From positions 6,744,035-6,808,034 of the forward strand of contig OZ025878.1 of NCBI GenBank assembly GCA_964019415.1: DNA of 64,000 nucleotides. Direction: 5' to 3'. Below the pieces are notes generated by a model, which ran no database searches, was not told the DNA's origin, and saw nothing but the letters and a program-made list of their open reading frames with translations. The translations under genes and the position numbers were made by a program. This DNA is from Ianthella basta. Lineage: Eukaryota; Porifera; Demospongiae; Verongiida; Ianthellidae. Below are positions 2,961 through 53,530 of the stretch, piece by piece (position 1 is the stretch's first letter; each line of letters begins with the position of its first letter).

Positions 2961-3444
2961 CACACACAACACAACATGTTCACACGCGACACAACACATG
3001 CAACAGAACACGTTCACACACAACACAACACTCACACACACAGTTCTGCCACGTACATCAGTATGTGCTTGCTATTCATACAACATACAGTAGCACACAC
3101 AATTACTCCCATTCACACAATCCTTTGTACAGTACCATATACCCAATGTATACAGTATGTGAATGCAACAAATGTGTGTATACAAACATACATATGCACA
3201 CAGACACACACTAACAAACACATCTCCATCTTGTGTCTTGCTTCAGGTGGAGAATGCAGGATGAACTGGAGAAGGCTGGCATTCCATCCAAAGTCATACT
3301 TGACTCAGCAGTTGGGTACGTGGACAGGCAGTAGCGTGTATACTGTAACCTGTGTGTGGTGGCTGCTTGATACAGTGACCACTATAGACAGGTTCCACTG
3401 TACATTGTACATACTGTACATTCAATGTTTGGGTTAGTCTAAAG

Positions 3445-4660
3445 CTGCCAGCCTTCCTGTCCACCCACCTGTCCACTCACCTGTTCCCCCCACCTGTCCC
3501 CCAACCTGTCCCCCTCACCTGTCCCCCCACCTGTCCCCCATGTCCCCCCACCTGTCCCCTCACCTGTCCCCCTGTCCCCCCTCCTGTCCCCCACTTGTCC
3601 CCCCTCCTGTCCCCCCACCTGTCCCCTCACCTGTCCCCCCACCTGTCCCCCATGTCCCCTCACGTGTCCCCTCACCTGTCCCCCCCTGTCCCCCCTCCTG
3701 TCCCCCACTTGTCCCCCCTCCTGTCCCCCCTCCTGTTCCCCCACCTGTCCCCCCACCTGTCCCCCCTCCTGTCCCCCCTCCTGTCTCCCCTCCTGTCCCC
3801 CCACCTGTCCCCCTACCTTTACCCCAGCCCGTCCCCCCTCCTGTCCCACCTCCTGTCCCACCCACCTGTCCCCTATTTGTCCCCCCACCTGTCCCCCTGT
3901 CCCCCTACCTGTCCCCCCGCCCGTCCCCTCACCTGTCCCCCTCACCTGTCCCCCCTGTCCCCCTACCTGTCCCCCGCCCGTCCCCTCACCTGTCCCACCC
4001 ACCTGTCCCCCCACCTGTCCCCCATGTCCCCCCACCTGTCCCCTCACCTGTCCCCCTTGTCCCCCCTCCTGTCCCCCCTCCTGTCCCCCCTCCTGTCCCC
4101 CCACTTGTCCCCCCTCCTGTCCCCCTCCTGTCCCCCCACCTGTCCCCCCACTTGCCCCCCCTCCTGTCTCCCCTCCTGTCCTCCCACTTGTCCCCCCACT
4201 TGTCCCCCCACTTGTCCCCCCACCTGTCCCCCCACTTGTCCCCCCACGTGTCCCCACTCCTGTCCCCCCACCTGTTTCCCTACCTGTCCCCCCACCTGCC
4301 CCCCCCTCCTGTCCCACCTCCTGTCTCACCCGCCTGTCCCCTATTTGTCCCCCCACCTGTCCCCCTGTCCCCCTACCTGTTTCCCCGCCCGTCCCCTCAC
4401 CTGTCCCCCTCACCTGTCCCCCCTATCCCCCTACCTGTCCCCTGCCCGTCCCCTCACCTGTCCCACCCACCTGTCCCCCCACCTGTCCCCCTCCTGTCCC
4501 CCCACGTGTCCCCTCACCTGTCCCCCCTCCTGTCTCCCCACCTGTCCCCCCACCTGTCCCCTATGTCCCCCCACCTGTCCCCTCACCTGTCCCCCCTCCT
4601 GTCCCCCCACGTGTCCCCCCTCCTGTCCCCCCACCTGTTCCCCTACCTGTCCCCCCTACG
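3445..4660. repeat. Minisatellite with CCTGTCCCC core, pseudogene copy
   Basis: About 1.2 kb of degenerate 11-13 bp units built on (C)ACCTGTCCCCC and (C)TCCTGTCCCCC. The strong strand bias (C+T on plus) gives long spurious open frames of SPHL, TCPP, VPPP or, on minus, GGTGGG type. It sits in the intron after exon 7, the same place as the larger array at 27715-29390 in the intact EIF2B1. Confidence 0.95.
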
Positions 4661-6557: not shown

Positions 6558-9500
6558 GTGAGCAAGCTAAGGCCTTTACCATTGAATAATCCATCTCACT
6601 TAGTATATAGGCCTACAGCTACTGTACAACTAGTTCAAGTCTTAGATAGCAGCAAAACAGCTAGCTAGCTAACTACATCACTAAAGTTGCACCAGTTAGA
6701 AACTACATGACTGTATACAGTCAGTGTACAGCCATGAAATAGTGTCCACTGCAGTGTATGGAGGGGTCCTTGGCAGGTGTGTGTGCTATGACTCTTCACT
6801 TTCCGTACAGCTGAAGAAGTGCTTGATCACTTTTGGGAAAGGTTCCTTGAAGAAATGGATGCAAATGCTGTCATAAGAGAACTTGAGCAGCAAGGCATCA
6901 TTCCACAAGGCGAGCAGGAGAAAGTAACAAAGACGTTTGAGCGAAAACAACAAAATGAGATTCTATTTGCATGTTTGAAGAGAACTTGCACCAAAGAAGC
7001 CTTGATGAGAGCATGCGGTATAATAATTGAAGTGAAGGGCAACCCTAAAATGAAATCATTGGGTGAAGATATGAAGAAGAGGCTGGAGACACGTCAGTGT
7101 TGTATGTGCATACATGCAGGTTTGAATACCATGAGCAAAATTAGCAACATATGTTAGCTACGTACATGCCTTTGCCTAATCTCTGAAATCATGCAGTTGT
7201 ATTTGACAGTGTAGAATTGGTTGTCCTGACATTGCTTAGCATATTTATGTAGTATCCATATGCACAGAATGTGTCATTTACATTGGAGGTTTGCGCAGGT
7301 TGGAGGTATGCACGTAACATATATATGGCAATAGCTTATATACCTGATATAGCATGCATGATTGTTTATGTTCCACTTAGGTCCTGACCCCACTAGTGGA
7401 GATCGATCTATCATCATACATGATATAAAGGAGAACTACATAGAACTCAAAGGAGTGTTCGTCAACTTGTGCACAACACAGGGGTCCCCTACTTTGGACG
7501 AATTGAAAGATCGTTGCATTGATCTGATAGAAGGAGCTCTCAGTAACATACCTCGAGTAGGTCGCCATGAAGATGACATCGAAAGGGCAAGGACACTGAG
7601 AGAACTGGCGCGTGTTGTGTGCTTCCGCTTAAGCAATTGGGTCAGTTACGAATTCTTCAAGAAGGTCATTGCCCATTTTCAGCCCGCCCTAAAAAGTGTC
7701 AAAGAGGGGCTGGTGCATTATGAGAAGCAGTTGAAACCTCTTTTGCTGCAAAAGCTAGAATACATTGCAGAACTCCAGCGACGGTAAGAAGTGGCAACAA
7801 TTAGTTACCGTATTGTCCCTAATTTTTCGGCTCCCTAATTGTTCGACACCCGCCAAAATAGTGTCGGATCATACTCGAACTTTTGACAAAAAATGGCTGT
7901 CCCTCATTGTTCGTCTCGACCTAATACGTCGTCTACTGCTGCGGAGTCTAGTCAATCGTTGGCTACTGTGACAATGATAACGATCGCCACGGATAGAGGT
8001 TCTACTTCGAACGTGAATTAGGTGAGCGTGACTTCAATGAAAAGCCAAAATGCCCAGCTACGTTGGTGGCGATTGTGTTTATGGTTAGCTATTTCGCTTA
8101 CATAGGCTATTCGTTGAAGTCGCGCACACCTAATTCACATTCGAAGTAGAGTGTTGTATCAACTGCAGCCTCCCACTGCTCCATGTAAGCATGATTATAC
8201 CCATACGCGAACAGCTGTCTCGACCATGAGCGAGAATTCAAGAATTCCTATCATTCCATCATTAGTCATCATAATTTCCTAATGTTTCGTCGCGCTTCCA
8301 GTCGCAACCCATATATTCCTAAGTACCGACTTGGATCTGTGTTTTACTCTGCTGAAAAATTAGGGACAATACGGTAGACGTTTTGTAAAGTGTAGTGTGC
8401 TTTGTTTTCACCCCATGCATTCATTGGTTTTTGTATTAAAGTAACAGTGCATGATTTGCTAATTACTTACAATATTAAGGAGACCAATATTGTGAGCAAA
8501 ATTAATGATGAAATGAATCAAATCTAATCTATAGAGAGGATGCTCCTAGGTGTATGGCAGAGCTTACTGTCAAGTACAGGCTGGATGCAGACGGCCTCCT
8601 ACTGAAAGACCTGATTGCCGAAAGGGACTTCCTGGCACAGCGACTGGGTATCCCTGAGCACCTCCTGCAAGTGCTTTCCTGGGGCGGTGGCTCAATAGTG
8701 ATCACATATTGGATATTGCGAGATGTGCTACCACTTGCTGAGCTGGCACTGTGCCGGGAGAATGTCCAAGCCGATCTCACCCAGCATGGTGTGGAAAATG
8801 TCTACCTAGACAGTCACCCTTCCGCACAACCTGGCTCCGTAAGCTCCAGTGAATGCATGCTCTAAGGCCATGGAGTTAGCATCGTGCTTGTGTAGCATTC
8901 CATGCATGGTCTCCCTTCCTCCATCAATGCAGGTGGATCTGTCTTTGCAGACTGTACATTGTAAGGAAACATATATTTGTTTGTCTCGTGTAAACTTTGT
9001 CTTCGTGACTATTTGCGTAGAAGTATTCATTCCTGCATACCAACTATCTGTAATAATTGTACTTTTCTCTGTGCATGTATTTGCCCTTTTTATACTTTCA
9101 TTTGTATATCTGTATTTGTAGTGCAACGACGTGCTATTGTCACTGTCCTCGATGCGCACCGTCAGGACATGGATATCACCACACTGACCTCTGACCTCCA
9201 GAGCAAGGGCATCATGACCACAGAGCAGTGCCAGAAACTATCCTCTCTGGATGACGAGGAGAGACGACATGAGGCTCTGCTGTACATCTTGCTGGCTCGT
9301 GATGGACCAGACACATACCACAAGCTTGTGGAATGTATGGGGAGGAGATATGCTTCCATAGCAGAAGATTTGCAAGGTGTGCTGATAAAATATTATATGT
9401 AATATGTTTACAGTTGCAATTTATGAAATGTGCTTGTGTAAATTGTCATCCGTGACTTAAGAATTACATACACACACATACTCTTGTTCAATTCAGCCAC

Positions 9501-12500
9501 CTTCAAAGCTCTGATGACATCTCATAGTGCTCTAACTGTCAGTAGCAGCTCTCAGTGTAAGTATACATCAGTGCCTTTTTAAAGTACACGCAGTGCAACC
9601 AAATTATTTCCCTGCTCCATGTGGGTGCATGATTGCAAGTGTATGGCTGTTACATGACCAATTCCATAGTTATTCATATAATTATGATAGCTGCTTGTAA
9701 CAGCATTCATTATCCGTACTACTCAGTATGTATGCCTTTAGTTCCTTTATTAGCATGAAATGGTATAGCCAATGTTTTGACAGAACACTGACTTTCGTGT
9801 GGTTCTTTTGCAAGTGCTTATACTGTAAGAGATTCAACCCATGCCAACCACAGTCTGCACTGTGACCTGCCAAGATAGAAACTGTATGTCATTTTTTTGT
9901 AGATGTTTCAAAGGGTCCTGAGGAGAGGGTGGCCAGCCAGGAGGTTGTGGAGACAATGAGAAGTGATGAACCTCTGCCAAGGGAGCAGACGAAAATAACA
10001 AGGCTCAACTTGATGGTGGAGAGGTGAGATGGGATGCATAGCTAATGTGTACATGCAGTATGTCCATTTCTTTGAAAGAGCTTTCAGTATACAGTCATGT
10101 ACACCATGATAAAGTAACCAGATGTATTTTTGCAAACCAAATGGATAGAAAATTTAGGGCATCCAAATTTGATGATTTGACTTGAAAGTTGGTGGATTTT
10201 GTGTTTGCAACTGAATTTAAACAAGTATGTAGTGATTCTGCATGCTGTGATATCATCAATTTAATGCAGTTGTCAAAAACAAAATTAGAGCTGCATGGGT
10301 CCAGCTGTCAAGGATAGCAAATTTGTGCTCGCGTGTCCCACCATCAGCATATCCATTATATCAATATTGGTACAATGAAAGCTTTTGGCAGATCATACTT
10401 ATTAAGGGGGCGGGTCTGCCTTAAAATAACATTTTTGGTACTTACAAAACCGTTCCTTCTGCCAGTCTTAAGTGGCATGCTGTCTTATTTGTGGTTCTGA
10501 TGGCAAGACAAAAGGCAATAATTCTACAAAGGAGCGTTAAAAACTTACAAACGCAAAAGATTGCAGTACAATTATTGATGGAGTTTGAGCAATTTTAACT
10601 ACGCATTATACGTTTTGTACTCGGAATGCTAGGAAATCGGTGGGTTTAAAGCTATAATACGATTAGGTTTGCACACACCTACAAAGTTACATATCTGCTA
10701 AGGAATTGAGTAAAGAGAATGCCAGTTAGAGTGCTTAGAATCGGCTCAAATGGCAAAATCCAGTCCTTCTACGCTTGTAGCGAGGCCATACTTCAAGTGA
10801 TCCACTATCCATTACGTAGATTTGTGCACATGCCTGTCAGCAGACCATAACAAAATTTTCATGGCGGCTGTCCAAAAGGTCACCTAAAGAGACATATAAT
10901 GGTAAAATGTCGAACAAAAATGTTATCAGCACATACTGGTCACATGCACAAGCATATAAATTGCACTATGTAATTGTATTCATAATACACATAATGATAT
11001 TCATGACATATATGAATATCATTAAAATAATTATAGGTTGCCATGGAGTGAGAGGTATAGCTGTTCAATATGCATATAAGCTAGGCATGGCAATATAGCG
11101 TAACCTGCCAATTATCAACCAGTACCTATTATTGACCAGTAGTATCCTGAAACATGCACAGATAGTTCGAAGATGTTTACAGAACTGTAAACAGAGTGAG
11201 GGGCCTTTGCGCGTTGATAGACGGCTTCCTGGAGACTCTGGTAAACATTAGCCGTCATCTTTAAGAGAGGGAAGGACTTCTTTACAAGAAGATCATAGCT
11301 GCACAACCCAGCAAAGAGTAAACGTGTACGCATCTTGTCTGAACGCATTATAACTCGCGAACGGTACCAGCTTTCCTCTTGAAATCTGCTATACAAACAT
11401 GGCACACCTTGCTCTGCAATCCTGGCCAATCCCAGATTGCTGGGGCGTTGCGAAGCGAAGTTACTGAACAATATCTGTGAAACGGTCGATAATTGGTATA
11501 GGCGTTTGTACATGTGGTCGATAATTGGTACGCTTGGTCGATAACTGGTCAATCACCGGGTCCACGGAAATGGCGAGCACTTAGGCAATGAATGTAGTTA
11601 TAGCTTCAAATGGCTGGACGGGACAACCGGTCGTTCAGCTATTTTTCGCCGCAAGAATCAAGCTTCAGCAACCTTCGGCGCCCAAGTTACACTTTAAGAT
11701 ACAAAAAACGGTCAATAATTGGCAGCTTACGCTAAATTGCCACAAGGCACATGATTGCCAAAACTTCAGATTAAATTTCTTCACCAAACTTTCCGACTTA
11801 TTATGCTACATGCATGTGTAAAACGTGTTCCATGCATCCCATATAAATATATAGGCTGCTTGAGAGTGCTACTGAAGAGCAGGATGGGGGAAGAGCAAGC
11901 GGTGACAAGGTTGTGGGTCACCTCCACCCAGAAGAAAGTGCATCTAAGATTGAAGCACTGGAAAGGGAGCTGTCTGAGACTAGGGAGGTAAAAGAGAGAC
12001 AGGAGGAGATAGTGAGGGAGCTCCAGGATGAACTGGAGAAGCAGTGCGTTTCTTACACTATACATCCTTATGGTATCATTGTGCAGTATAAATTACAGCA
12101 GAGTTCCCACTTTACATCTCTTTGCTTATGCACAGAATTGCTGATTCAGAATCAAATCTGAAGACCAGTGCTTTGCAGAGAGAGTGAGTTAAGCTTGCAT
12201 GCATGTGGTGCAGTGTCCCTTTTCAGCTAGTGAGTTCAAATACTACAGAAGTAAAACTAGAGTGACATTGATCAGCTGAAGGTATGACATATCGATATGA
12301 TTTTGGAAGGATTTGGGCTATGTTGAAGATGAAGCATTTACATATGGTGGTTGTGCTCACATTTATGTACATGTAGGTTAACAGAGTTAGACAGCATGTA
12401 CTCAGTGTTACAAAAGAAGCACTTTGAGTTAGAAGAGACGTACTTTGAGTTGAAAGCCAGTAACTCAGAGTTACAAGAGATACACTCTGAGTTAGAAGAG

Positions 12501-15500
12501 ACATACCATCAGTTACATGGGAGCAACATTGAGTTAAAAGTCAGTAACTCAGAGTTACAAGAGAGGTTCAGAAGTACAAAGGAGGAAGTGAGTTGTATAT
12601 GTGGTATCTCACCATTAGCACTGAATGATGTATTTGGAGGTATTACAATATTCCCTTTTGAGCAGTTCGAGCTCTTCAAGACAAAGCATGCTAGTTGCGA
12701 TGTCACAAAGGTAGGTGCAGGAGGCATATTTACAGGGGAGAGGGAAGTGAATTGTTATGTGCCATTGTAATGCATGCAATATTATATTATTATATGTGAC
12801 ATTTGAATGTTGCATACTTCAATACATGCAGACGGAGCATGAGGTAGGTACAACAAAATTGTAAGGAACTAATCCTGATGATCTTCAGATATGTACCTTT
12901 ACAACTTTCTTCTCTGCTTTCTGCATGGACAATGTGGATCCTTCAGGTAAACAAGTAACAGGAATGCCATTTTGCACTGTGATTATTGTATGTTTCTAAT
13001 AGCTTCATATCTCTGTTACTTCTTCCTCAGAGGGTGAGTCCCAATATTTCCCATGCTAGTGAATGTTCCCGATCAGTGCAGTAATATCTGCTAAATATAC
13101 CATCTCTCCAATCACATGCATTGGCAATTACCGTGAAGCCAGTGAGTGTCATTTCTTTTAGCCATTTCCACATGGCTGCACACATGCATGGGTGAACGTT
13201 CTTGTGATGTTAACTCATCCTAGAATATTACTATTTTCCTTCCACCTCAGTCGGTGAGTCTCAATCCCTGTGACATCTTCATTGTCACCTGTCTGTTCTT
13301 ATAACTACCTTTTCTCTCACTTTTGCATTGGATGGAATGGGATGCTAACAGGTCAGTAAATAGAACTGTCATTGAAAATCTGGTACAACTTGAACTTTCC
13401 ATTCATTATTTATACCCTGGATTATGTCAACAAACACTAAGTTTTGCTTAAAGGAGAATGCTAATTGAGATGGTCTATGTACCATGGTGACACCAATGAA
13501 AGACAACGTTCAGAACTACATGCACATGGTAAAGAAAATAGGGGAAGAAAAGAAAAATGGCAGTGACCCGGACCAGCACCAGCAACCTCCAGATCTTTAG
13601 CTGACCCTTTAGCAGCAGGGTCAATGGTCACTGCCAACAGCCACTGATCAATTCCCTCCTTATATAGAAGGGGGGAAAGGAAAATGGCAGTTTTTTTTCC
13701 TTCCCCCCTTCTTTCTTTACCATGTGTAGTTCTGCATTTTGTCTTTCATTTGTGTCACCATGGTAAATTGACCATCTTAATTAGCATTTCCGATAATGTC
13801 ACTGATTAGTCAGTGCCTGGTGTGCGAGTTTCAAAGGCGGCTCTGGATAGAGCTCGCCCACTTTGGTATATAAGGAGGGAATGGATCAGTGGCTGTTGGC
13901 GGTGACCAGTGACCCGGCTCCTAAAGGGTTGGCTAAAGATCTGAGGGTGCCGGTGCTGGTCCGGTTCACTGCCAATTTCCCCTTCCCTACTTCTTTCTTT
14001 ACCACATGTAGTTTTGAATGTTGTCTTTCATTAAAGGAGAATGTCTTTGAGTGAGATGCTCTATAGTACACTACAAATCTATAGCATAGCATGATGCATT
14101 GGAAAAGGTAGATAATGATAAGGGATAGTCTATCAAGCTAGACGGCTCTTCCACATTCTTGCATAACCAGCAGTAATGGGAGGGAAAGGCAATTTTATTT
14201 TTGGCTACTGAAAACACAAATGAGTGGATCTGTATAGCTTGATAGTCTAAGTCTAGATATGGATAAATTTGTGGTATACGTGGGCAATCACTGGAGTTAT
14301 TACACCTAACCAGCTTGCTACACTGACATATATCAGTGAGGCTGCATGGGAGCGGCAGCTTCGTCCTATCAATCATCAGCAACTGATTGGCTCCCAGGAC
14401 CACAGGACCTTTGTAGTTGATAATACGGTGAAACATGTCTAAGACAGCCACCTGTGGGCCATTCTAACATGACCTGTATAAAGAGTTGGCTGCTCTACAG
14501 AGGTAGTTTGTAATTTGTTAGTGCTATTTGGGACCAAGAAGGCTGGCTGTTTTAGAGAGGTGGCTGCCTATCATTCAGTGACCATCTTAGACAGGTTCCA
14601 CTGTGTTATTGCTGTGATATATGAGGATTATACATAGTAAAGCATGCATGCATGACCGCTATTAAGATTACCATTCTTACCTTCATTTAGTGTTGATGTA
14701 GCTTAGACTGTGGAAAACACTCTAGTGTGAAAAGAATTCGTTTACTAGTAATTAAAAGGTATTACATAGTGCATTAACCATTGCAGGCCTTGCTGCACAT
14801 GTATACATGTATGTACAATGAAATCCTTAATGTCTCTTACAGCTCCTTCACTATCAAGCATCAAAGCATTTCATAGAACCTACAAGCTTGTAACAAATGC
14901 TCTTATGCCCCCCGTGTTTTTCAGCAATGCCTTTGTTTTTAGCATCATTCCCTATCATCTGTGGTCTGCCATCTTTATTGCACATTGAATCTAATATTGT
15001 ATAAATGGGTAGCGAAACCAGATCCTGACGCTGCTCAGGGGATTAGTTCAAATCAGATTATTAGGTGGTCATGTTTATGGGTTTGACCTAATCATTAATG
15101 TGTCCACGTGAGGCAAAGGATATCAGATATCAGGATCCTGTGTCAGAGCAGGATCAGTTAACCCGGATTCAATCCAGAATGAAAACAGATCAGATCTATA
15201 TTTATGACGCTGGCCAGTCTTGTGAATGGATTAATCTGGATTAAGGTGCATGCACGGGAACAGAGGGGTAGACACACTGATGTATGTCAAGGCAGCATGC
15301 TGATTTGGTGTATTATAATAACTTTAGTCATTTTGTAGCTGCGTAAGTATCCCTCACAATGAGAAACTGTCTACCTCCCCTCCCTTGAATAATATTGCCG
15401 TATGGTAACCATGTGCAGGTGTATAGTACACATCAGAAGCATGCAACAATGAATCACTCTGTCAATCATCATTGCATGTTGATTCCTGTATGCTGTATAG

Positions 15501-18500
15501 TCGCACATGTGTAGGACTCCGTGTGTACGTAAAGAATGAAAGTTGTAGATTGTTAACATGTCCACTGTATATGTTTGTGCATCATTGTGATTTGGTTGCC
15601 ATCATGCTGCTCCTTGTTTGTTTCAGTGGGTGAGTTCCACTTCATATACCTTAATGGATATGCAATGTTCCTGAACTCCACTATACTGAATGTCTTGTTA
15701 TCTCTCATCCTGGCCTCATGTGATACATACATGACATGACAGGTGAGTGAGACCCTCTTGGTCCATTACATACATACTATAGTGATTATGTATTATCATT
15801 GTTTCTCCTTCTAACGCAGTGGGTAAGTACCAGTACTTACATACCACATCCAGTGTCACTTATTTGCAATATTAATTGCTTCATCATATTCTCCTGCAAT
15901 TTGGGACTACGTGAAACATGACAGGTCAGTTAATAGTAGTTCATTGGGGCATATATTTTACACAGTTCATCCTTCATTCCGTATTGTGAGACTTTAGTCA
16001 TGTTAACATTTTCTTTTGCCTTCCTCCCACCTCAGAGGGTGAGTCCTGTTCAGACTATAGATGTGCAGGTCAATCCTGTGTTGCACTAATACCTGTCTGC
16101 TTTTCTCTTCATTTCTGCATGGAACATAACAGCGAGTGAGTACATTATTTAACTCCATTTCATGAGTCAATTTGTGGTTTATGATTGTACCTATTTTTCT
16201 ATTCCCATCACAGCTTGTGAGTCCTGCACACATTGACGTATACCCTAATGATATGCATCTATACGTTGTCAGTGTTCTTGCTAAATGACTTTCATGTTTC
16301 TCTACCACTGTTGCAACCCAACTGAACATTCCAGGTGAGTATAGGTACAATATTTCCGTACATGAATGTCTCACTCATTGCAGTACATCAATGACTCTAG
16401 TTATTATGCACTATCTGCATTCTTCTTCTTTTTGTATCCCAACTCAGTTTGTGAGTTCTGCACATACTCTTGCCATCGTACTCATTGACCCGTATGCCAA
16501 TCATCCCCATGTCTCCTCTCCATGGCAAACTGATATTACGTATCTTACATGCAGGTGAGTGATTTAAGTTTCCCACTTTCTGGATTATGCATGTCATAGT
16601 TAACTGTATAATATTATGTACATTCTCTTCTTGCCCAACTCAGAGGGTGAGTCCAGCAACTATGCACCTACCTCAGTGAAATCTACTAATGTGATTATTG
16701 CTAATACCTCCTGTTTTTATATCATTGCAACACTGGGAAGGTGGCTACATCACAGGTGTGTTTGGTAGAAAATGCTGACAATTAACAGAAGCCTTGCACT
16801 TGGCATGGTTGTGCATGGCTTAGCTACGTTTATTACACTGCATGTGTTTTCGCCATTCAGAGACCTCAGAGAGTGAGTCCCACTCCTTTCACTTGCCCAG
16901 CGGGTCACTGATTATTGCTAATCATTGTGTTCTCTCCATCGCATGCTGATTGCATGTATTTAATAGGAAGTAAGTGACAATACATCACCACACCTAGCAG
17001 TGTATACAATATTATACAGTATACAACTGTATAATTGTGGTGTGCAATTGTTTTTCTCCAAACCTCAGGACGTGAGTCCCACCCTTCTCCAACTGACCCA
17101 ATCTTGTGTCAGTATTAGTGATTTTCCTCATCCCTACTATATGTGTGTTATCTCACTTCTTACCGGGAACACATGACAACAGCCAGTAAGTGGCACATCT
17201 CCACACTTTCTATATATTGTGCCAGTGTGTTCATTGTGATGTGGCTTTGGTTTACAGTAGTATTAAATTTTGTTATTGTTATGCTATGCGCATAGCAATC
17301 GTTTTGGTCTGTCTGTCTGTCAGTCTGTCAGAATTTTCAACATTTGCTGCTGGTGTGGTCAATCTAGAATCTAAATCTAAAAGGACCCCAAGCCTGAGAA
17401 AATTGGTAAATTGACATACATTCGATCATGTCTGTGCACCTGGATTCCATTGACATGGATGGTTTGCTGTGATAATTCACATTTTTATCGGCATTTCCTA
17501 GGGTATGCCATTTTGTTTGACTACTTTTAAGGTACAGTTCGTGAGCTGAGGCTATGTAGGATGGCAGCCGACTGTTGGCAACAGAGAAGACCCTAAAAGC
17601 TTTCCTACGCATTTGATGTGTAGTTACTATAGTTCCTTGCTTGTCTCCTATAATACTTTTCTTTATTTACTTGCTTCTATGAGCCAAATCTACCTCTTCC
17701 TCAATTGACTTAGATATTTAGAAGCAGCAGTCTCAGATACAAGTGGCTAACCTTCACTCTATTCAGCACTGGCCATGCATACAATCACAGCTCAAAACAT
17801 TCCCAATGACAGACCTAAGCACCAGCCACTAGTGTGCGTGTTTGTTCATGTGTAGCTGTGTGTGACTGCATGGATAATTATGTGTCTGTTGGAAGAGGAC
17901 TATGTATGCATGCAGTGGCATGCATGTGATTGTAATACAAGTGCCATGGGTCCATGTTGCTCTGTTATATGCATTAGTCTCGCGTACCAGCCCCTATTAT
18001 TGCACAATCTCGCTTGGAATAGAAGAAATATTACGCGCCAGGCCCTATTATTGCACAATCGAAATGAAATTGGAGACATATAGGGTCTGCAAGCAATACT
18101 AGTTTATGCATGACCAGTACCATGACCTGTGTGTATTAGTACTTAATGTGTGTGGAGAGACGTGTACACTTGCGTACATGCTTGGTGTAAGGAACATCAA
18201 AATGGACTGACTAGGGTATGTAGATGTGCAGTATTTATATGGTCTATTCTGAAAAGAGAGGAGGTGAGACTTTTACCATCATTGTGATGGGCTTGTGGTT
18301 TGTTTCATTATTTCTGTCTCATCCTTTCTAAAGTTGCACCGATAATCGAATTGGCAATCGGTATCGGCCGATATTGGGTCTCTGTAACCTTATCGGTAAT
18401 CGTTTTTTTCCTTCATCCCCTACCGATTATGTCACCTCGAGCACGTGACGTTTGCGAGTAAAGTGTTATGCGAGTGGTTACATTGTTGCAGCATTTGCCG

Positions 18501-21500
18501 TTGGTTTGTTCTGGGTCTGCAGCGCATAGAATCGCCAGGAAGAAAGATTCACCAGCATGGGACTGCTTCGCTGCCGACGAGGACCTCAACTTCGTAGTGT
18601 GCCAGGCCTGCAACAGGAAGGAATCCGCGCAGCGGTAGGAATTGCGTGCACGAGTTATATTATGGCTACGACTATACGAATTTGGTGCAGCAACTGAAGG
18701 ACAAGCACGCTCAACTACACAGAGAGTTTCAACAAAATAGTTGAGGTGCAGAATGCAGCGACTTTATCAAGTAGTCCAGCGCCTTTCTGGCAAATATCAC
18801 TTCGAGCCTGAAAGTGAAGATCGCATATGAATCTGTAGGCTAAGCTGTATTAGTGATGCGCGCACACAGCGTATTCACAGGAGAACTGGTGAGATGATTG
18901 CACTCAATTATTGTCAGCCGTTCTCTGTGGCTGAGGACCAGGACTTCAGGCAATGGATCAAAGAAACCAAGGTACACATTGTGAAGCAAAAATTGGAATA
19001 TCGGATCAGTATCGGCACTTAAAAATCGGAAATCGGATAATCAGTAAAAACCTATATCGGTGCAACTCTTAAAGGATTCCTTTCTCCCACCTCAGGAGGT
19101 GAGTCCCACTCCTTCCACCTATTCCAATGATGTGTGTGCCGTCAATTGTCTGATGTGTATAATACACTTTCCTCTTCAATTCTTGGAATGCATGGAATAT
19201 ACGTAACAGCAACTGAGTAACACATCCCCACACCTTCTACCGTCATTGTGATGTGTTTGTGGTTTGTTTTACTGTTGCTGTCTCATCCTTTCTCCCACCT
19301 CAGGTGGTGAGTCCCAATCCTTCCACCTGCTCCAATGATGTGTGTCACGTCAGTTGTCTGATGTATTTATATACTTTCCTCTTCAATTCTTGGAATGCAT
19401 GGAACGTAACAGTTTGTGAGTAGCACATCCCCACACCTTCTACCATCGTTATGATGGGCTTGTGGTTTGTTTCAGTTTTTCTATCTCATCCTTTCTCTCA
19501 CCTCAGGAGGTGAGTCCCAATCTTCCCACCTGTTCCAATGATGTGCGGGACGTCAGTTGTCTGATGTATTTATACTTTCCTCTTCACTTCTTGGAATGCA
19601 TGGAACATAACAGGGAGTGAGTAACACATCCCCACACCTTCTAACGTCATTGTGATGTGCTTGTGGTTTGTTTTATATTGCTGTCTCATCCTTTCTCCTG
19701 CGTCAGGCGGTGAGTCCCACTCCTTCCATCTGTCCCAATGATGTATGGGACGTCAGTTGTCTGATGTGTTTATACTTTCCTCTTCACTTCTTGGAATGCA
19801 TGGAACATAACAGATAGTGAGTAACACATCCCCACACCTTCTACTGTCATTGTGATGTGCTTGTGACTTGTTTTATATTGCTGTCTCATCCTTTCTCCTG
19901 CGTCAGGCGGTGAGTCCCACTCCTTCCATCTGTCCCAATGATGTATGGGACGTCAGTTGTCTGATGTATTTATACTTTCCTCTTCACTTCTTGGAATGCA
20001 TGGAACATAACAGGAAGTGAGTAACACATCCCCACACCTTCTACCGTCATTGTGATGTGCTTGTGATTTGTTTCATTGTTGCTGTCTAATCTTTTCTCCC
20101 ACCTCAGGTGGTGAGTCCCACTCCTTCCACCTGTTCCAATGATGTATGTGACGTCAGTTGTTTGATGTATTTATACTTTCCTCTTCACTTCTTGGAATGC
20201 ATGGAACATAACAGATAGTGAGTAACACATCCCCACACCTTCTACTGTCATTGTGATGTGCTTGTGACTTGTTTTATATTGCTGTCTCATCCTTTCTCCT
20301 GCGTCAGGCGGTGAGTCCCACTCCTTCCATCTGTCCCAATGATGTATGGGACGTCAGTTGTCTGATGTATTTATACTTTCCTCTTCACTTCTTGGAATGC
20401 ATGGAACATAACAGGAAGTGAGTAACACATCCCCACACCTTCTACCGTCATTGTGATGTGCTTGTGATTTGTTTCATTGTTGCTGTCTAATCTTTTCTCC
20501 CACCTCAGGTGGTGAGTCCCACTCCTTCCACCTGTTCCAATGATGTATGTGACGTCAGTTGTTTGATGTATTTATACTTTCCTCTTCACTTCTTGGAATG
20601 CATGGAACATAACAGGAAGTGAGTAACACATCCCCACACCTTCTAACGTCATTGTGATGTGCTTGTGGTTTGTTTTATATTGCTGTCTCATCCTTTCTCC
20701 CGAGTCAGCCGGTGAGTCCCATTCCTTCCCAATGATGTGTGTGACGTCAGTTGTCTGATGTATTTATACTTTCCTCTTCAATTCTTGGAATGCATGCATG
20801 GAACATAACAGACAGTGAGTAACACATCCCCACACCTTCTACCGTCATTGTGATGTGCTTGTGGTTTGTTTTATTGTTGCTGTCTCATCTTTTTTCCCAC
20901 CTCAGAGGGTGAGTCTCATTCCTTCCACCTGTCCCAATGATGTGTATGCCGTCAGTTGTCTGATGTGTTTATACTTTCCTCTTCACTTCTTGGAATGCAT
21001 GGAACATAATAGCTAGTGAGTAACACATCCCCACACCTTCTACCGTCATTGTGATGTGCTTGTGATTTGTTTCATTGTTGCTGTCTAATCTTTTCTCCCA
21101 CCTCAGGTGGTGAGTCCCACTCCTTCCACCTGTTCCAATGATGTATGTGACGTCAGTTGTTTGATGTATTTATACTTTCCTCTTCACTTCTTGGAATGCA
21201 TGGAACATAACAGGATGTGAGTAACACATCCCCACACCTTCTAACGTCATTGTGATGTGCTTGTGGTTTGTTTTATATTGCTGTCTCATCCTTTCTCCCG
21301 AGTCAGCTGGTGAGTCCCATTCCTTCCCAATGATGTGTGTGACGTCAGTTGTCTGATGTATTTATACTTTCCTCTTCAATTCTTGGAATGCATGCATGGA
21401 ACATAACAGACAGTGAGTAACACATCCCCACACCTTCTACCGTCATTGTGATGTGCTTGTGGTTTGTTTTATATTGCTGTCTCATCTTTTCTCTCGCATC

Positions 21501-23589
21501 AGACGGTGAGTCCCATTCCTTCCACGTGTCCCAATGATGTGTGTGCCGTCAATTGTCTGATGTGTATAATATGCTTTCCTCTTCAATTCTTGGAATGCAT
21601 GGAACATAATAGCTAGTGAGTAACACATCCCCACACCTTCTACCGTCATTGTGATGTGCTTGTGGTTTGTTTTATATTGCTGTCTCATCTTTTCTCTCGC
21701 ATCAGACGGTGAGTCCCATTCCTTCCACGTGTCCCAATGATGTGTGTGCCGTCAATTGTCTGATGTGTATAATATGCTTTCCTCTTCAATTCTTGGAATG
21801 CATGGAACATAACAGTTCGTGAGTAACACATCCCCACACCTTCTACCGTCATTGTGATGTGCTTGTGGTTTGTTTTATATTGCTGTCTCATCTTTTCTCT
21901 CGCATCAGACGGTGAGTCCCATTCCTTCCACGTGTCCCAATGATGTGTGTGCCGTCAATTGTCTGATGTGTATAATATGCTTTCCTCTTCAATTCTTGGA
22001 ATGCATGGAACATAACAGCCAGTGAGTAACGCATTCTCACACCTTCTACCATCATTGTTATGTGCTTGTGGTTTGTTTTTTATTGCTGCCTCATTACTTT
22101 GAATACATCGAACATGCTATATACTGTATACTGCTTGTCATTAAAACATTTCTACACTTCTTCTATCATTGTGTTATGCATTGTGTTGTTATTATGGTTT
22201 GTTTTATATTACTGTTTTCTCCTTTTCTCCTTTCTTCCATGCAACTCAGGATGTAAGTTGACACTCCTCCTTATCTATACCCATGCATGATGTGTCATGA
22301 CTGATATCTTTTTCTTCTCCATACTGGCATAACACATGGAACATGACAGCCAGTGAGTAACACATCCACACACCTTCTACGTCTTGTGATGCTGGTGTGA
22401 TCTGTTTTAAACTACCACTACCCCTCTCTCCTATTTAATGATTCCTCAGTGGCTTATTCCCACTCTATGCACACAACCTACTGAAAGTGCCAATTAGGCT
22501 TTGATTTTTATGCTTTAAATTGTACTCCTCATTTTGATTGGGCCACAATTACAGCCAATGAATTACAGTACTAGATTACCTATCTACTTCTATATAACTA
22601 TGTTGTGAAAGTGTTGTGTATGTTGCGGGTTGTTGTTTCACCTTCCATAGATTTTGTTACTATAGTAAAGTGCATCTATATATTCAATGTTTCTAAACAT
22701 CATAGACATCCCAGCTGCACTTTAGCATTGTGGTCAATATCATTCAGCCATTTCCTCGAATTTCATCACGCATTATTTGTATCTGTGCTCTAACTAAGGC
22801 ACGAACTTCACGGACTGTGGTCTATATAGCAGAGAAAGCGCAGCTGCATAGTAGCAACTAATTTATAATTTATGTGAAGCATCATTATAATGACAAATAA
22901 TGCACACTTATACATAGATAATTCCACTCAATTGCAAACACAAAAGTCATGATCAGCAGCAGTTATGATGCACAGTTTACCCAGCATATATACTTGCTTC
23001 ATTACGTAGCAGGATAGAGCAATTATCCAAATAGGAGCCAGCGCTAAATAGAAAACTGGTTATGAGCTACATGCCACATTCCACTGCCAGCCTGTAGAAA
23101 AGGTCTGTTGGATGACCAACCCATGCATGCTGACCAGAGTCACATGCCATTTTTCAGCCATAGTTGTGAGTAGCTAGCTACATCTGGAGGATGTGTGATG
23201 ATGCAAGGAAAAGCAGGTATGAACAAATTCACTGCCGATTCTTTGCTCATTCATTAGAGATGTATAACACTTAAATGCTGACCAGTTAGTGTCTATATAT
23301 GTAGACCACTCAGGATGTGATACAAGTATGCATGTGTTAACCACTGCAGTGATGTAGCTTCAAAAATTATGTGAATATGAAAAGGAAATTCCACATTAAC
23401 ATTACTGTCAAAAAAATCGTCTTTCACATTAGAGATATAGTGTGCATAATGATGCATATATTGACTACCATCATGCTGATCTGTGTAATGCATTTGTCAT
23501 TGTACGTGCACCTTCTGCAGTCTGAGAGGACTAGTTCCAAACTGAAACCAGAAAAGCAGAAGGGCGAAGAGCCTGAGGATGTGTCCTAA
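6554..23589 (+). CDS. CARD - helical modules - CARD - coiled-coil protein with a microexon-array linker
   Basis: Exons that keep one frame: 6554-6557 (ATGG), 6811-7092, 7381-7783, 8535-8838, 8933-8960, 9122-9376, 9497-9556, 9903-10023, 11867-12043, 12136-12183, 12377-12587 (or to 12710), then the triplet array, then 23521-23589 (TAA). The core is about 653 residues. Residues 3-92 and about 341-423 look like death-fold CARDs. Residues 96-229 are a helical module. Residues 230-331 (exon 8535-8838, with SIVITYWILRD) form another conserved-looking module; I recall similar stretches in sponge and cnidarian proteins but cannot name a family. Residues about 505-631 are coiled coil, with SELQE/ELEETY repeats. 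The tail is short and Lys/Glu-rich (SERTSSKLKPEK…). CARDs join by homotypic contact and coiled coils oligomerise, so an innate-immunity or cell-death adaptor is likely (inference). No NACHT, LRR or caspase domain is seen. The 28-nt exon 8933-8960 is supported mainly by phase. The tandem copy ends at 226. Confidence 0.7.
7806..8376. mobile_element. MITE-like element with 23-bp perfect terminal inverted repeats, TA target (Tc1/mariner-like ends)
   Basis: Left end TACCGTATTGTCCCTAATTT and right end AAATTAGGGACAATACGGTA are perfect inverted repeats, starting and ending at TA. A second inverted pair lies inside (CTACTTCGAACGTGAATTAG near 8005 and CTAATTCACATTCGAAGTAG near 8130). There is no transposase frame. 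It lies in the intron between exons 7381-7783 and 8535-8838. Confidence 0.8.
10024..11097 (+). other. Large intron of the CARD gene, first part
   Basis: Non-coding by phase and frame. AT-rich, with no recognisable element until the MITE at 11098. Confidence 0.45.
11098..11733. mobile_element. MITE-like element with imperfect ~25-bp terminal inverted repeats
   Basis: Left end GCGTAACCTGCCAATTATCA is matched by the reverse complement of the right end, GTCAATAATTGGCAGCTTAC. Several subterminal copies of GGTCGATAATTGGTA occur near the right side (about 11485-11545). The long minus-strand open frame inside shows no known domain. It lies in the intron before exon 11867. Confidence 0.65.
12588..12710 (+). 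other. Optional in-frame extension of the coiled-coil exon (41 codons)
   Basis: Exon 12377 can end at 12587 (GAGGAA|GTGAGT, strong donor) or run on without a stop to 12710 (ACAAAG|GTAGGT). Both ends are phase 0. The extra 41 codons include ALNDVFGGITIFPFEQFELF, which reads as plausible protein, not random sequence. Confidence 0.5.
12832..12843 (+). other. Candidate 12-nt microexon (Thr-Glu-His-Glu)
   Basis: An acceptor ACATGCAG ends at 12831, then ACGGAGCATGAG, then donor GTAGGT from 12844. Twelve nt in phase 0 keep the CARD-gene frame. It is the first member of the microexon series downstream of the coiled coil. Confidence 0.5.
12945..13354 (+). other. Microexon array, block 1 (diverged units)
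   Basis: Successive acceptor-triplet-donor sites: AG/GT with no base between at 12946/12947; AGG 13031-13033; CCA 13139-13141; TCG 13251-13253; zero-length junction at 13351/13352 (AACAG|GTCAGT). Type-A sites follow a pyrimidine tract ending CCTCAG and lead into GTGAGTC. Type-B sites follow ATAACAG-like acceptors. The A/B alternation is the same as in the later blocks, but the surrounding sequence has diverged further. Confidence 0.55.
13452..14060. mobile_element. Long foldback element (nested inverted repeats) inside the microexon array
   Basis: About 13497-13690 is an inverted copy of about 13850-14032. Shared blocks include ACCAGCACC, AGATCTTTAG and GGGAATTGATCAGTGGC-type sequence. A shorter inner pair (about 13452-13540 against 13706-13793, sharing ATGGTGACAC and AATGAAAGACAA) lies within it. 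No open transposase frame. It separates block 1 from block 2 of the array. Confidence 0.7.
14061..15600. other. Spacer between array blocks 1 and 2; holds a dispersed repeat
   Basis: About 14440-14605 matches 33565-33720 (shared GTGCTATTTGGG, AGGCTGGCTGTTT, GTGGCTGCCTA and ACCATCTTAGAC), so it is a dispersed, probably SINE- or MITE-like repeat. The rest shows no gene and no regular acceptor-triplet-donor site. It looks like inserted or diverged intron sequence. Confidence 0.5.
15627..17186 (+). other. Microexon array, block 2 (alternating triplets and zero-length junctions)
   Basis: Type-A triplets: TGG 15627-15629, TGG 15820-15822, AGG 16036-16038, CTT 16214-16216, TTT 16448-16450, AGG 16644-16646, AGA 16870-16872, GAC 17069-17071. 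Type-B sites: zero-length at 15742/15743, CGA 16133-16135, zero-length at 15924/15925, 16334/16335, 16554/16555 and 16755/16756, GAA 16967-16969, CCA 17183-17185. Each triplet sits between an AG and GTGAGT or GTAAGT. A and B alternate strictly with about 80-120 bp between sites, a plausible size for very short introns. Zero-length sites would act as recursive splice sites, if used. Confidence 0.6.
17255..18255. other. Array interruption, no feature recognised
   Basis: Array-like sequence fades after the type-B tail near 17250 and resumes near 18256 (ACTTTTACCATCATTGTGATG). In between are a few CTGTCTGT repeats (about 17309-17330) and a short direct repeat, CCCTATTATTGCACAATC (about 17992 and 18044). 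No gene is seen. Confidence 0.5.
18330..19077 (+). mobile_element. Non-autonomous hAT (ZBED-type) DNA transposon relic
   Basis: Ends share AGTTGCACCGAT in inverted orientation, and related ATCGG-rich subterminal sequence lies inside both ends. An 8-bp direct repeat, TCCTTTCT (18322-18329 and 19078-19085), fits a hAT target duplication and cuts a type-A acceptor region of the array. The plus strand encodes a BED-finger-like piece (WDCF…CQAC, about 18560-18615) and a hAT transposase-like piece (QPFSVAEDQDFRQWI, about 18915-18965), separated by stops. It is dead and internally deleted. Confidence 0.75.
19086..22021 (+). repeat. Microexon array, block 3: homogenised ~200-bp tandem units, each with two splice-flanked triplets
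   Basis: About fifteen units of 195-215 bp. Each has a type-A site (pyrimidine tract, CAG, NNN, GTGAGTCCC) and a type-B site (AACATAACAG, NNN, GTGAGTAAC) about 105 bp later. Type-A triplets start at 19096 GAG, 19314 GTG, 19507 GAG, 19707 GCG, 19907 GCG, 20108 GTG, 20308 GCG, 20509 GTG, 20709 CCG, 20906 AGG, 21107 GTG, 21307 CTG, 21503 ACG, 21706 ACG, 21909 ACG. Type-B: 19413 TTT, 19614 GGA, 19814 ATA, 20014 GAA, 20215 ATA, 20415 GAA, 20616 GAA, 20812 ACA, 21013 CTA, 21214 GAT, 21410 ACA, 21613 CTA, 21816 TTC, 22019 CCA. The first type-B site (CAA at 19210) has lost its donor (CTGAGT). All intact spacers are exactly three bases and none is a stop codon. Confidence 0.85.
22250..22352 (+). other. 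Microexon array, block 4 (last intact sites)
   Basis: Type-A GAT at 22250-22252 (acceptor CAACTCAG, donor GTAAGT) and type-B CCA at 22350-22352 (acceptor CATGACAG, donor GTGAGT). After this, similar sites near 22449 (CCTCAG TGG CTTATT) and 22555 (TTACAG CCA ATGAAT) lack a donor, so the array decays here. Confidence 0.5.
22353..23520 (+). other. Last intron of the CARD gene
   Basis: About 1.15 kb between the last intact microexon site and the acceptor CTTCTGCAG ending at 23520. Two decayed array sites lie at its start. Nothing else is recognised. Confidence 0.45.
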
Positions 23590-24945
23590 TCAAGTTCTGG
23601 AGTGATGAAGAGTGTCTCCATGTAACGCAAGCTATAAATATAACTTTAACACAAGATGCAATAACATACACATTACACTATCAACTAGCAGCTGTAGTTA
23701 AATATGACACACAAGACAGGTCTTTTGTAGCTGTATATATACCAATTAGAGCAGTCGTGCAATTCGCTACACTGGAGTACAATTCGGGCAATTGCAATGT
23801 GAATACCATATTTAGCTCTAATTTTTGTGGGCCGGATTGTACTTTCACATATTCCATGAGGCTGTCAGCATTCAAATTCATATGATTGTGGAAATGTATT
23901 TTCATGAAATTTTGTGCCTTGCACATTAATTCAGTATGTACATCTCTTGTGGTATTATTTTTATATAAATTTAATAATATGTAGCTATGTAGCTATAGCT
24001 AGATAGTGCAAGTATATTATATATAGAGAGCATTAATCATAGTTCACGTATGCCAGTAGATCATGATCAATGCACGCACGCGCTATACTTGCTGGCAGGA
24101 GTCCATGTGCCCAGCATGTACGTATACGTATAATATACTATCTATAATAATATGTAATAACAGATCGAGGCCCATGGGCCATAATATAATTATAATTATA
24201 TATATTATAGGCCCACAAGTGCCAGTAGATCGAGAGTGCATATACTGGTAGACAAAGACCAGCTGCAGTACATATATATATTATAGATTTAAAAGTTAAT
24301 TAAAGAGCTCAGGACCACATGGGCCAGTAAAGTATATAATGCACTATAGTCAGTGGTACAGTGGTTTGTGAAATGCTTGGAGTGAGCATCAATAATTGTT
24401 TCAATTTTAAGTTTAACTTTATATAATTATATTAATATAATTATACATTAAGCCTATAGCTAAGGAACCAATATAAGCTTGCTACTTTCCCTGGAGCTAT
24501 TAGCTAATTGATGAACTTTATTTCCCGAAATTGTTGTCATGTGACATCGAGTTTAGCAGCAGGTTGGCTAGCTAGCTAGCTACTCTTAGCTAACATATAC
24601 ATAGCTACATGTACGTAGCAGTTTTAAATTTGTATAGTTACACTTACTCAGAACCAGCTGCAGGAGGGTCGTCATCACCTAGGATAAGCTACATAGTATA
24701 TTACATGTAAATTTTACAGCTAGCTAGCTAGCTACATGCTTGCAGATCGAGGTCATTATTATTATGTAATCATTAATTGCAGTAGTAGTCTTGCTGTACG
24801 TTCGCATGCATGTGTGTATATGTATGCGTATAATTTATGTCAGAGAGACAACGTATTTTAGCTATAATATGATAGAGTAGCTAAGTCGATAGTTAGCTAG
24901 GCAGAATTTCAGACAGGGGATTCCCCCAGCTCACATGCTGCTAAA
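23590..24945. other. Intergenic: CARD gene 3' flank to EIF2B1
   Basis: AT-rich, with many GCTAGCTAGCTA and TATA runs. The sequence just after 23589 matches the flank after 226. The stretch 24905-24945 matches 830-864 upstream of the pseudogene. Both confirm the segmental duplication. A diffuse promoter for EIF2B1 must lie here, but no clear element can be picked out. Confidence 0.5.
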
Positions 24946-30685
<5,740 letters not shown>

Positions 30686-52744: not shown

Positions 52745-53530
52745 ATTGAGGAGGGTAGATAAAGTTGGATGATGGCATTCAAGGAGGCTGGATGAAGTAG
52801 TGTTGTCTGTGCATGGCTTTGGAGGAGGTCGGATGAAATGGGGTGGTGGTTGCATCATTGAATGAGAGTGGATGAAGTGGAGCAATGGCTGCAGCATGAA
52901 AGGAGACTGGATGAAGTGGGGCAGTGACTGCAGCATTGGATGAAGCCGGATGATGTGCGGCGGTGACTGCAGCATTAGAAGAGGGTGGATGATGTGTGGC
53001 GGTGACTGCAGCATTAGAAAAGGGTGGATGATGTGCGGCGGTGACTTCAGCATTAGAAAAGGGTGGATGATGTGCGGCGGTGACTTCAGCATTAGAAAAG
53101 GGTGGATGATGTGCAGCGGTGACTGCAGCATTAATTGAGGGTGGATGAAGTGGGGCGGGGACTGCAGCATTGGAGGAAGCCGGATGATGTGCGCCGGTGA
53201 CTGCAGCATTGGAAAAGGGTGGATGATGTGCGGCGGTGACTGCAGCATTGGAAAAGGGTGGATGATGTGCGGCGGTGACTGCAGCATTAGTTGAGGGTGG
53301 ATGAAGTGGGGCGGTGATTGCAGCATTAGATGAGGGTGGATGAAGTGGGGCGGTGACTGTAGCATGCATTAGATGAGGGTGGATGAAGTGGGGTGGTGAT
53401 TGCATTGGAGAAAGCCGGATGAAATGGGATGGTGGTTGTCATTGAAAGAGGATGGATGAAGTAGGGTGGTAACTGCAGCATTGGAGGAGACTGGATAAAG
53501 TGCGGTGGTTGCTGCAGCATTGGACCAGGA
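52745..53530. repeat. Minisatellite, 39-bp unit, about 19 copies
   Basis: The unit is GTGGATGATGTGCGGCGGTG + ACTGCAGCATTAGAAAAGG with variants. As 39 is a multiple of three, open frames persist on both strands (minus: 13-residue SNAAVTAAHHPPF-type repeats). No start, stop or splice context supports a gene. Confidence 0.9.

Follow-up and report, generated by a model that had tools for sequence, protein, structure and literature searches.

A row of splice-like points runs for about 9 kb through a CARD/coiled-coil gene of Ianthella basta. We consider it very probable that these are splicing ratchet points, each adding either no codon or one, which multiplied by tandem duplication and were kept both coding and diverse. 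The window, i.e. the whole stretch of DNA that was analysed, has 64,000 nucleotides. A direct motif count on its + strand gave 45 matches to the strict pattern YAG-NNN-GTRAGT, with 44 of them inside 12700-22400, which confirms the original prediction of about 45 single-codon candidates whose acceptor and donor are separated by exactly three bases. Every other spacing between 0 and 12 gave 0-3 matches on this strand, and the three-base motif has 4 matches on the - strand. The 49 matches on both strands compare with a mean of 2.84 and a maximum of 8 in 100 dinucleotide shuffles. No triplet of the window is a stop codon, as had also been claimed.

The strict sites of the array extend from 13028 to 22358 on the + strand. 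The first block has 2 of them, an older block 11, a young block 29 and the far end of the array the last 2 (table 1). The array had been thought to start at 12832, but this position opens a 12-nt exon and not a triplet. A strict alternation of two site types, 80-120 bp apart, had been described as well. Two types of points (A and B) do alternate and neighbours are mostly 77-121 bp apart, but two insertions interrupt the row (judged by eye, at roughly 13420-15330 and 17260-19060), which also includes zero-nt points. The latter, found in the older block, are of type B and have the AG joined straight to the GT donor, the arrangement by which ratchet points are recognised. The young block belongs to a tandem repeat (19078-22094, period 201 or 401) in which most of the 200-bp units hold one A and one B site; one unit near 19210 has a broken donor (CAA then CTGAGT, by eye). 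A typical A site has a pyrimidine tract upstream and reads CCCACCTCAG-NNN-GTGAGTCCC, while the B site reads GGAACATAACAG-NNN-GTGAGTAACAC.

Some candidates were not accepted as members. The triplet CTA at 12227-12229 is the one + strand site with three-base spacing outside the array. It sits in a phase-2 intron, some 40 nt downstream of a donor, and was excluded because its inclusion would create a stop. CTA sites also head the lists of all four C11 paralogues, and the one here, set between CAG and GTGAGT, is possibly a poison or decoy site. We also rejected TTC at 17538 (donor GTGAGC), which belongs to inserted DNA, and the zero-nt match with donor GTGTAT at 15416. The nested inverted repeats in the first interruption may be a transposable element inserted in the array. 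Four intron stretches showed no unusual RNA fold (z from -0.96 to 0.31), and a search of 9000-24000 at the Rfam gathering cut-offs returned no family.

Table 1. Exons of the gene model, blocks of the array and neighbouring features, in positions of the window.
Feature	Position	Strand	Remarks
CARD exon	9122..9376	+	AG/GT borders; phase fits the model; Pfam, AlphaFold and Foldseek
Coding exon	9497..9556	+	AG/GT bounded; in phase within the joined 313-residue frame
Coding exon	9903..10023	+	conserved in three other C11 paralogues
Exon with coiled-coil-like sequence	11855..12043	+	coiled coil judged by eye
Coding exon	12136..12183	+	gene model
Coiled-coil-like exon with 21/42/63-bp repeats	12377..12587	+	ends in phase 0
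78-nt mini-intron	12588..12665	+	GTGAGT...GAGCAG
45-nt symmetric exon, FELFKTKHASCDVTK	12666..12710	+	peptide identical in 4/4 C11 paralogues
12-nt symmetric exon, ACGGAGCATGAG (TEHE)	12832..12843	+	TEHE or KEHE in 4/4 C11 paralogues
First array block	13028..13259	+	AGG (13031), CCA (13139, weak AAG acceptor; outside the strict count and the 496 triplets), TCG (13251)
Nested inverted repeats within the first array interruption	13457..14032	.	
Older, diverged array block	15624..17191	+	11 strict sites: TGG, TGG, AGG, CGA, CTT, TTT, AGG, AGA, GAA, GAC, CCA, in order; zero-nt ratchet-like sites at 15740, 16332, 16552 and 16753 (donor weaker at 16753)
Young array block	19093..22027	+	units of ~200 bp that combine an A with a B site; 29 of the strict 3-nt sites
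Final two single-codon sites	22247..22358	+	GAT (22250-22252), CCA (22350-22352)
Last exon with stop, SERTSSKLKPEKQKGEEPEDVS	23521..23589	+	phase 0

Our gene model starts at the CARD exon and consists of eight exons between 9122 and 12843 and of the last exon. The eight exons are all bordered by AG and GT and join into one open frame of 313 residues. Positions 12587 and 12710 had been proposed as alternative exon ends; they are consecutive, with the 78-nt mini-intron between them followed by the 45-nt exon. The counterpart of this mini-intron in the paralogue C11b contains two stop codons, while the exons on either side remain open. A homologous 45-nt phase-0 exon is present in 3/3 C3 genes, and weak protein matches to it lie near both C12 arrays (E 0.38 and 0.39). 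The expectation that the final exon opens in phase 0 was correct, and it runs to its stop at 23589. It recurs behind the array C11a (95% over 21 residues) and was not seen behind the other arrays. A similarity search for C-terminal exons of the C3 and C7 genes gave nothing convincing, and none was identified for the C12 genes or for two C11 genes.

The description of the host as a CARD gene is supported by fold. Pfam scores the exon at 9122-9376 as CARD with 18.8 bits (E 0.0017), under the family cut-off of 23.9 bits. The AlphaFold model of this exon has six helices (pLDDT 89.5). A Foldseek search of the PDB placed the Apaf-1 CARD at the top (best E 0.012, probability 1.00, with none at E ≤ 0.001), and the entries named Apaf-1 CARD among the first 17 matches have a TMq of 0.71-0.84. 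Further top matches were proteins designed on the Apaf-1 CARD template and other CARDs. These predictions support the view that the exon adopts a CARD fold, though its sequence match is under the Pfam cut-off. Judged by eye and by heptad-length repeats, much of the remaining protein looks like coiled coil. The repeats of 21, 42 and 63 bp at 12398-12564 correspond to whole heptads in the coiled-coil-like exon, and three C11 paralogues do not have much of this stretch. The gene is flanked by two minisatellites of the same 12-bp unit CCTGTCCCCCCA (3456-4656 and 27708-29293, about 103 and 132 copies). Elsewhere in the window, tandem repeats of 39 and 33 bp at 52819-53524 and 62194-62353 are multiples of three and perhaps coding.

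One array unit served as query against the genome from which the window comes (209 Mb, 96 contigs), in a search that gives lower bounds. There are at least 12 arrays in four clusters (four in C11, three in C3, three in C7 and two in C12), and units of C12 and C7 used as queries found the further arrays again. Ten arrays were read completely, along with 4 kb of one C12 array. Under a donor rule that was loosened a little, these 11 arrays have 609 points, of which 496 are triplets (13-81 read per array), including the probable non-member TTC at 17538, and 113 have the AG directly on the GT. Forward matches in the regions read amount to 233, 45 and 134 for the three-base spacing in C11, C3 and C7, and to 8, 41 and 47 for zero spacing; the other spacings from 1 to 12 give at most 10 each. 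Between the four families, representative units share 64-73% identity and yet have the same layout.

Several exons are shared among the genes that carry the arrays. The CARD exon is common to the C11 genes (4/4), the exon ahead of the array to the C3 and C11 genes, and the coiled-coil-like and upstream exons to the C3 and C7 genes. One C7 and one C3 exon have CARD_2 as their best Pfam family (17.1 and 19.7 bits, under the cut-off of 28.2). The only link between C7 and C11 is the DNA of the arrays. A search with the exons (E ≤ 1) for intronless copies of the gene gave 7 places, all at known C11, C3 and C12 genes, with all but the two C12 places read. The two-site pattern occurs genome-wide 1254 times in forward and 671 times in reverse orientation, and the reversed pattern 526 and 567 times. 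There are many GT-rich repeats among the two-site matches listed, and hence we did not use this pattern to count arrays. One scan of viral and one of prokaryote genomes with array motifs gave 0 matches each, in collections that may lack records of this genome. Some loci show variants of the layout. The - strand of L028 has, at about 3087-3318, a further row of eight acceptor-donor joints without triplets, in which CAG or TAG abuts GTGAGG every 33 bp. In the C7 arrays (L033, L034, L036, L037, L038 and L040), the B points vary between AG joined directly to GTGAGT and AG-NNN-GTGAG. This switch shifts the usual distance to the next point by 1 bp (94 versus 93), as if three bases replaced four.

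The 496 triplets contain 0 stops in phase 0, against 31 and 20 when the same strings are read at +1 and +2. Shuffling the columns within groups predicts 27.0 stops in 472 triplets, and there are none. Among 2000 shuffles, not one was free of stops for C11 A, C3 A or C7, while 644 were for C11 B and all 2000 for C12; the result thus says little about C11 B and C12 sites. These counts overstate independence, because the units are duplicates. We also considered the inferred replacement events only, counted as changes of triplet along minimum spanning trees that were built from flank distances: 12.6 stops are expected among 231 events and 0 were seen. The triplets comprise 39 of the 64 possible ones and none is a stop, which has a probability of 0.055 by chance. 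The residues of the C7 arrays are mostly E, A, L, R, Q, K, H, D, M and F, with few V, I and S and no G or P. Those of C11a are rich in S, A, P, I and L.

We tested the retention of splice signals on units found by their flanks alone, with the site masked and at most 30% mismatches per side, a limit that leaves very decayed units uncounted. Intact CAG and GTGAG are more frequent than the flank rate predicts in 7 of the 8 scorable site groups: C11 A (88/92, 47.7 expected), C11 B (88/95, 76.0), C3 A (41/42, 37.1), zero-nt C3 B (41/41, 32.9), C7 A (126/127, 99.7), zero-nt C7 B (41/42, 31.0) and C12 B (19/19, 14.1). The exception is C12 A, with 12/17 under an expectation of 14.3 and with AG and GT kept in 17/17. 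The probe for the 3-nt C7 B sites recovered zero-nt units only, and these sites are not among the eight groups.

The triplets themselves vary far more than the introns around them. We measured diversity as the mean pairwise difference per site in the 30 bp upstream, at the three triplet positions and in the 30 bp downstream. At the 42 C3 A sites the values are 0.023 upstream, 0.733, 0.734 and 0.693 in the triplet, and 0.030 downstream, i.e. the triplets are near the maximum (0.69-0.73 of 0.75 per site). The corresponding values are 0.153, then 0.686, 0.720 and 0.252, then 0.218 for C11 A (106 sites); 0.094, then 0.682, 0.689 and 0.187, then 0.092 for C11 B (99 sites); and 0.017, then 0.603, 0.667 and 0.000, then 0.088 for C12 A (13 sites). 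From these per-site values, the third codon position is nearly fixed in C12 and about at flank level in C11. The flank values of C7 (0.356 and 0.333) are not comparable, because A and B sites are pooled in this group. Individual columns of the flanks go up to 0.48-0.58 in the triplet groups of C11, C12 and C7, but no higher than 0.138 in C3 A. Together with the missing stops and the retained motifs, variable triplets between similar introns strongly support, in this comparison of paralogous arrays, the original reading of the triplets as single-codon exons.

Close duplicates indicate how the codons may have changed. Near-identical pairs, whose flanks differ at no more than one of 180 bp, carry different triplets in 20/26 cases for C3 A, 54/132 for C7, 3/16 for C11 B, 1/2 for C12 and 1/22 for C11 A. 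Some sites with identical 180-bp flanks carry different codons (CTG, GTG and TCC; AGA and CAA; GAG and TTG; GCG and TGG), and 145 of the 231 replacement events altered more than one of the three positions. The pair counts show that codons were replaced between untouched introns in C3 and C7, which is rare among the freshest C11 duplicates. Since most C11 pairs share their triplet (21/22 at A and 13/16 at B sites), rapid codon change is not general. The simplest cause of the codon diversity would be selection, together with exchange among the introns, while replacement aimed at the codon itself is possible.

Other explanations deserve consideration. Tandem repeats are common within introns, and the arrays might be intronic satellites with chance splice-like motifs, neither spliced nor translated, in which the triplets drift freely. 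Yet drift predicts stops in both of the tests given above, and it leaves unexplained the 3-nt differences amid 180 identical bp, the spacing of 0 or 3 nt and the splice motifs that outlast their flanks. We give this explanation very little credence. An invasion resembling that of introners, in which one intron was copied into successive codon borders, would make the triplets the remains of a formerly continuous coding exon. It accounts for identical introns around differing codons and for the protein-like composition in C7. But such insertion is expected to leave exons of many lengths and only 0 and 3 nt stand out, while the two alternating unit types and the periods of 201 and 401 point to tandem duplication, which makes this origin quite improbable. 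It is unlikely, in our view, that the sites serve to help remove a long intron or to slow its removal, with the 3-nt residue tolerated and not used. The 113 zero-nt points among 609 fit this role, as the juxtaposition of AG and GT is what defines ratchet points in the account of PMC8605326, but tolerated triplets need no diversity, let alone the near-maximal one of C3, and the length of the intron comes from the arrays themselves.

A different question is whether real exons would be used in combination. The codons may all be included in every transcript, so that duplication of intron-codon-intron units lengthened a fixed linker or helix. This constitutive use predicts zero stops in phase 0 just as variable use does, and it suits the three C7 arrays, whose residues are mostly helix formers (E, A, L, R, Q, K, H). 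However, the concatenated C7 peptides show no heptad or helix periodicity over shuffles in 15 tests, except for one weak value (C7c at 90 degrees, 17 of 2000 shuffles; the others ≥412). In addition, error-free inclusion of up to 81 very similar points would presumably be demanding. We give constitutive use a substantial chance, short of an even one.

The reading that we prefer is that of ratchet points that leave behind no codon or one. At each point, the acceptor (...CAG) would be followed after exactly 0 or 3 nt by the donor (GTGAGT...), and an intron of about 75-120 nt would separate most points from the next. An exon of 3 nt cannot bind U2AF/U2 in front and U1 behind simultaneously. It is too short for both splice complexes, and hence the introns would most likely be removed successively. 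Each splicing step would re-form a donor at the end of the growing exon and add no codon or one to the mRNA. Zero-nt points would then be ratchet points in the usual sense, and 3-nt points would be ratchet points that leave a codon. The modelled junctions from 12587 onward are all in phase 0, and therefore any number of points could be used or skipped without a shift of frame, as originally noted for any subset of triplets. Combinatorial use, residue by residue, as first suggested, would thus be possible. Some skipping is likely because the splice sites are very similar, and the stretch that links the coiled coil to the short C-terminal exon would then come in a mixture of forms. The arrays would grow by tandem duplication, duplication and exchange would keep the introns alike, and selection would keep the codons open and make them diverse.

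The proposed arrays resemble several known systems in part. Schistosoma MEGs contain several symmetric, very short exons in series, mostly multiples of three, and their splicing varies the protein. As described in PMC10526429, these exons are mostly of 15 bp (range 6-81, or 3-81 in its abstract), with 10-20 per gene, introns of 0.1-5 kb and secreted products. Symmetric micro-exons in series are likewise what the anatomy of our candidates suggests, but here all array exons have 3 nt, 13-81 of them were read per array, the introns are alike and of about 75-120 nt, and the gene encodes a CARD/coiled-coil protein. Recursive splicing also relies on juxtaposed acceptors and donors (PMC8605326, PMC5126111). 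Ratchet points of the known kind are features of long introns and are not known to add anything to the mRNA, whereas here they would form dense arrays in which most points leave one codon. Single 3-nt microexons, as in Ncam and troponin T, gain or lose one codon per exon (PMC8042270, PMC4674806). These sources describe them as single exons, while we observe arrays with diversified codons. Our candidates would contribute one residue per exon, and we saw no exclusion mechanism. Dscam exons, in contrast, are much longer and mutually exclusive. Dscam-type clusters of alternative exons are a source of many isoforms, according to the account in PMC10803435. No array of single-codon exons was among the open-access PMC papers listed by our searches, a scope outside which preprints and most subscription papers fall.

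The array is placed behind the coiled coil and ahead of a short C-terminal tail. In general, CARDs build signalling complexes, and coiled coils mediate oligomerisation; our guess is that the array tunes or diversifies assembly or recognition. We tentatively entertain a further possibility, which we would not bet on: transcripts or cells may each use a different subset of up to 81 single-codon exons, and in the germ line entire codons may be exchanged en bloc within introns that remain identical, which together would form a linker repertoire on a CARD protein. If true, an enormous set of linkers would exist on a CARD signalling protein, with diversity generated codon by codon through splicing. 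We know of no described immune or adhesion repertoire that resembles this. Exons of this size will probably escape standard annotation, and similar arrays may thus hide in other genomes. The arrays lend themselves naturally to studying how exons of 0-3 nt are dealt with by the spliceosome. They would mean that an exon can shrink to a single codon and go on to multiply into long rows, and that splicing, working as a ratchet, can write a peptide one residue at a time. If inclusion varies, this would be a new route to protein diversity in an animal CARD gene.
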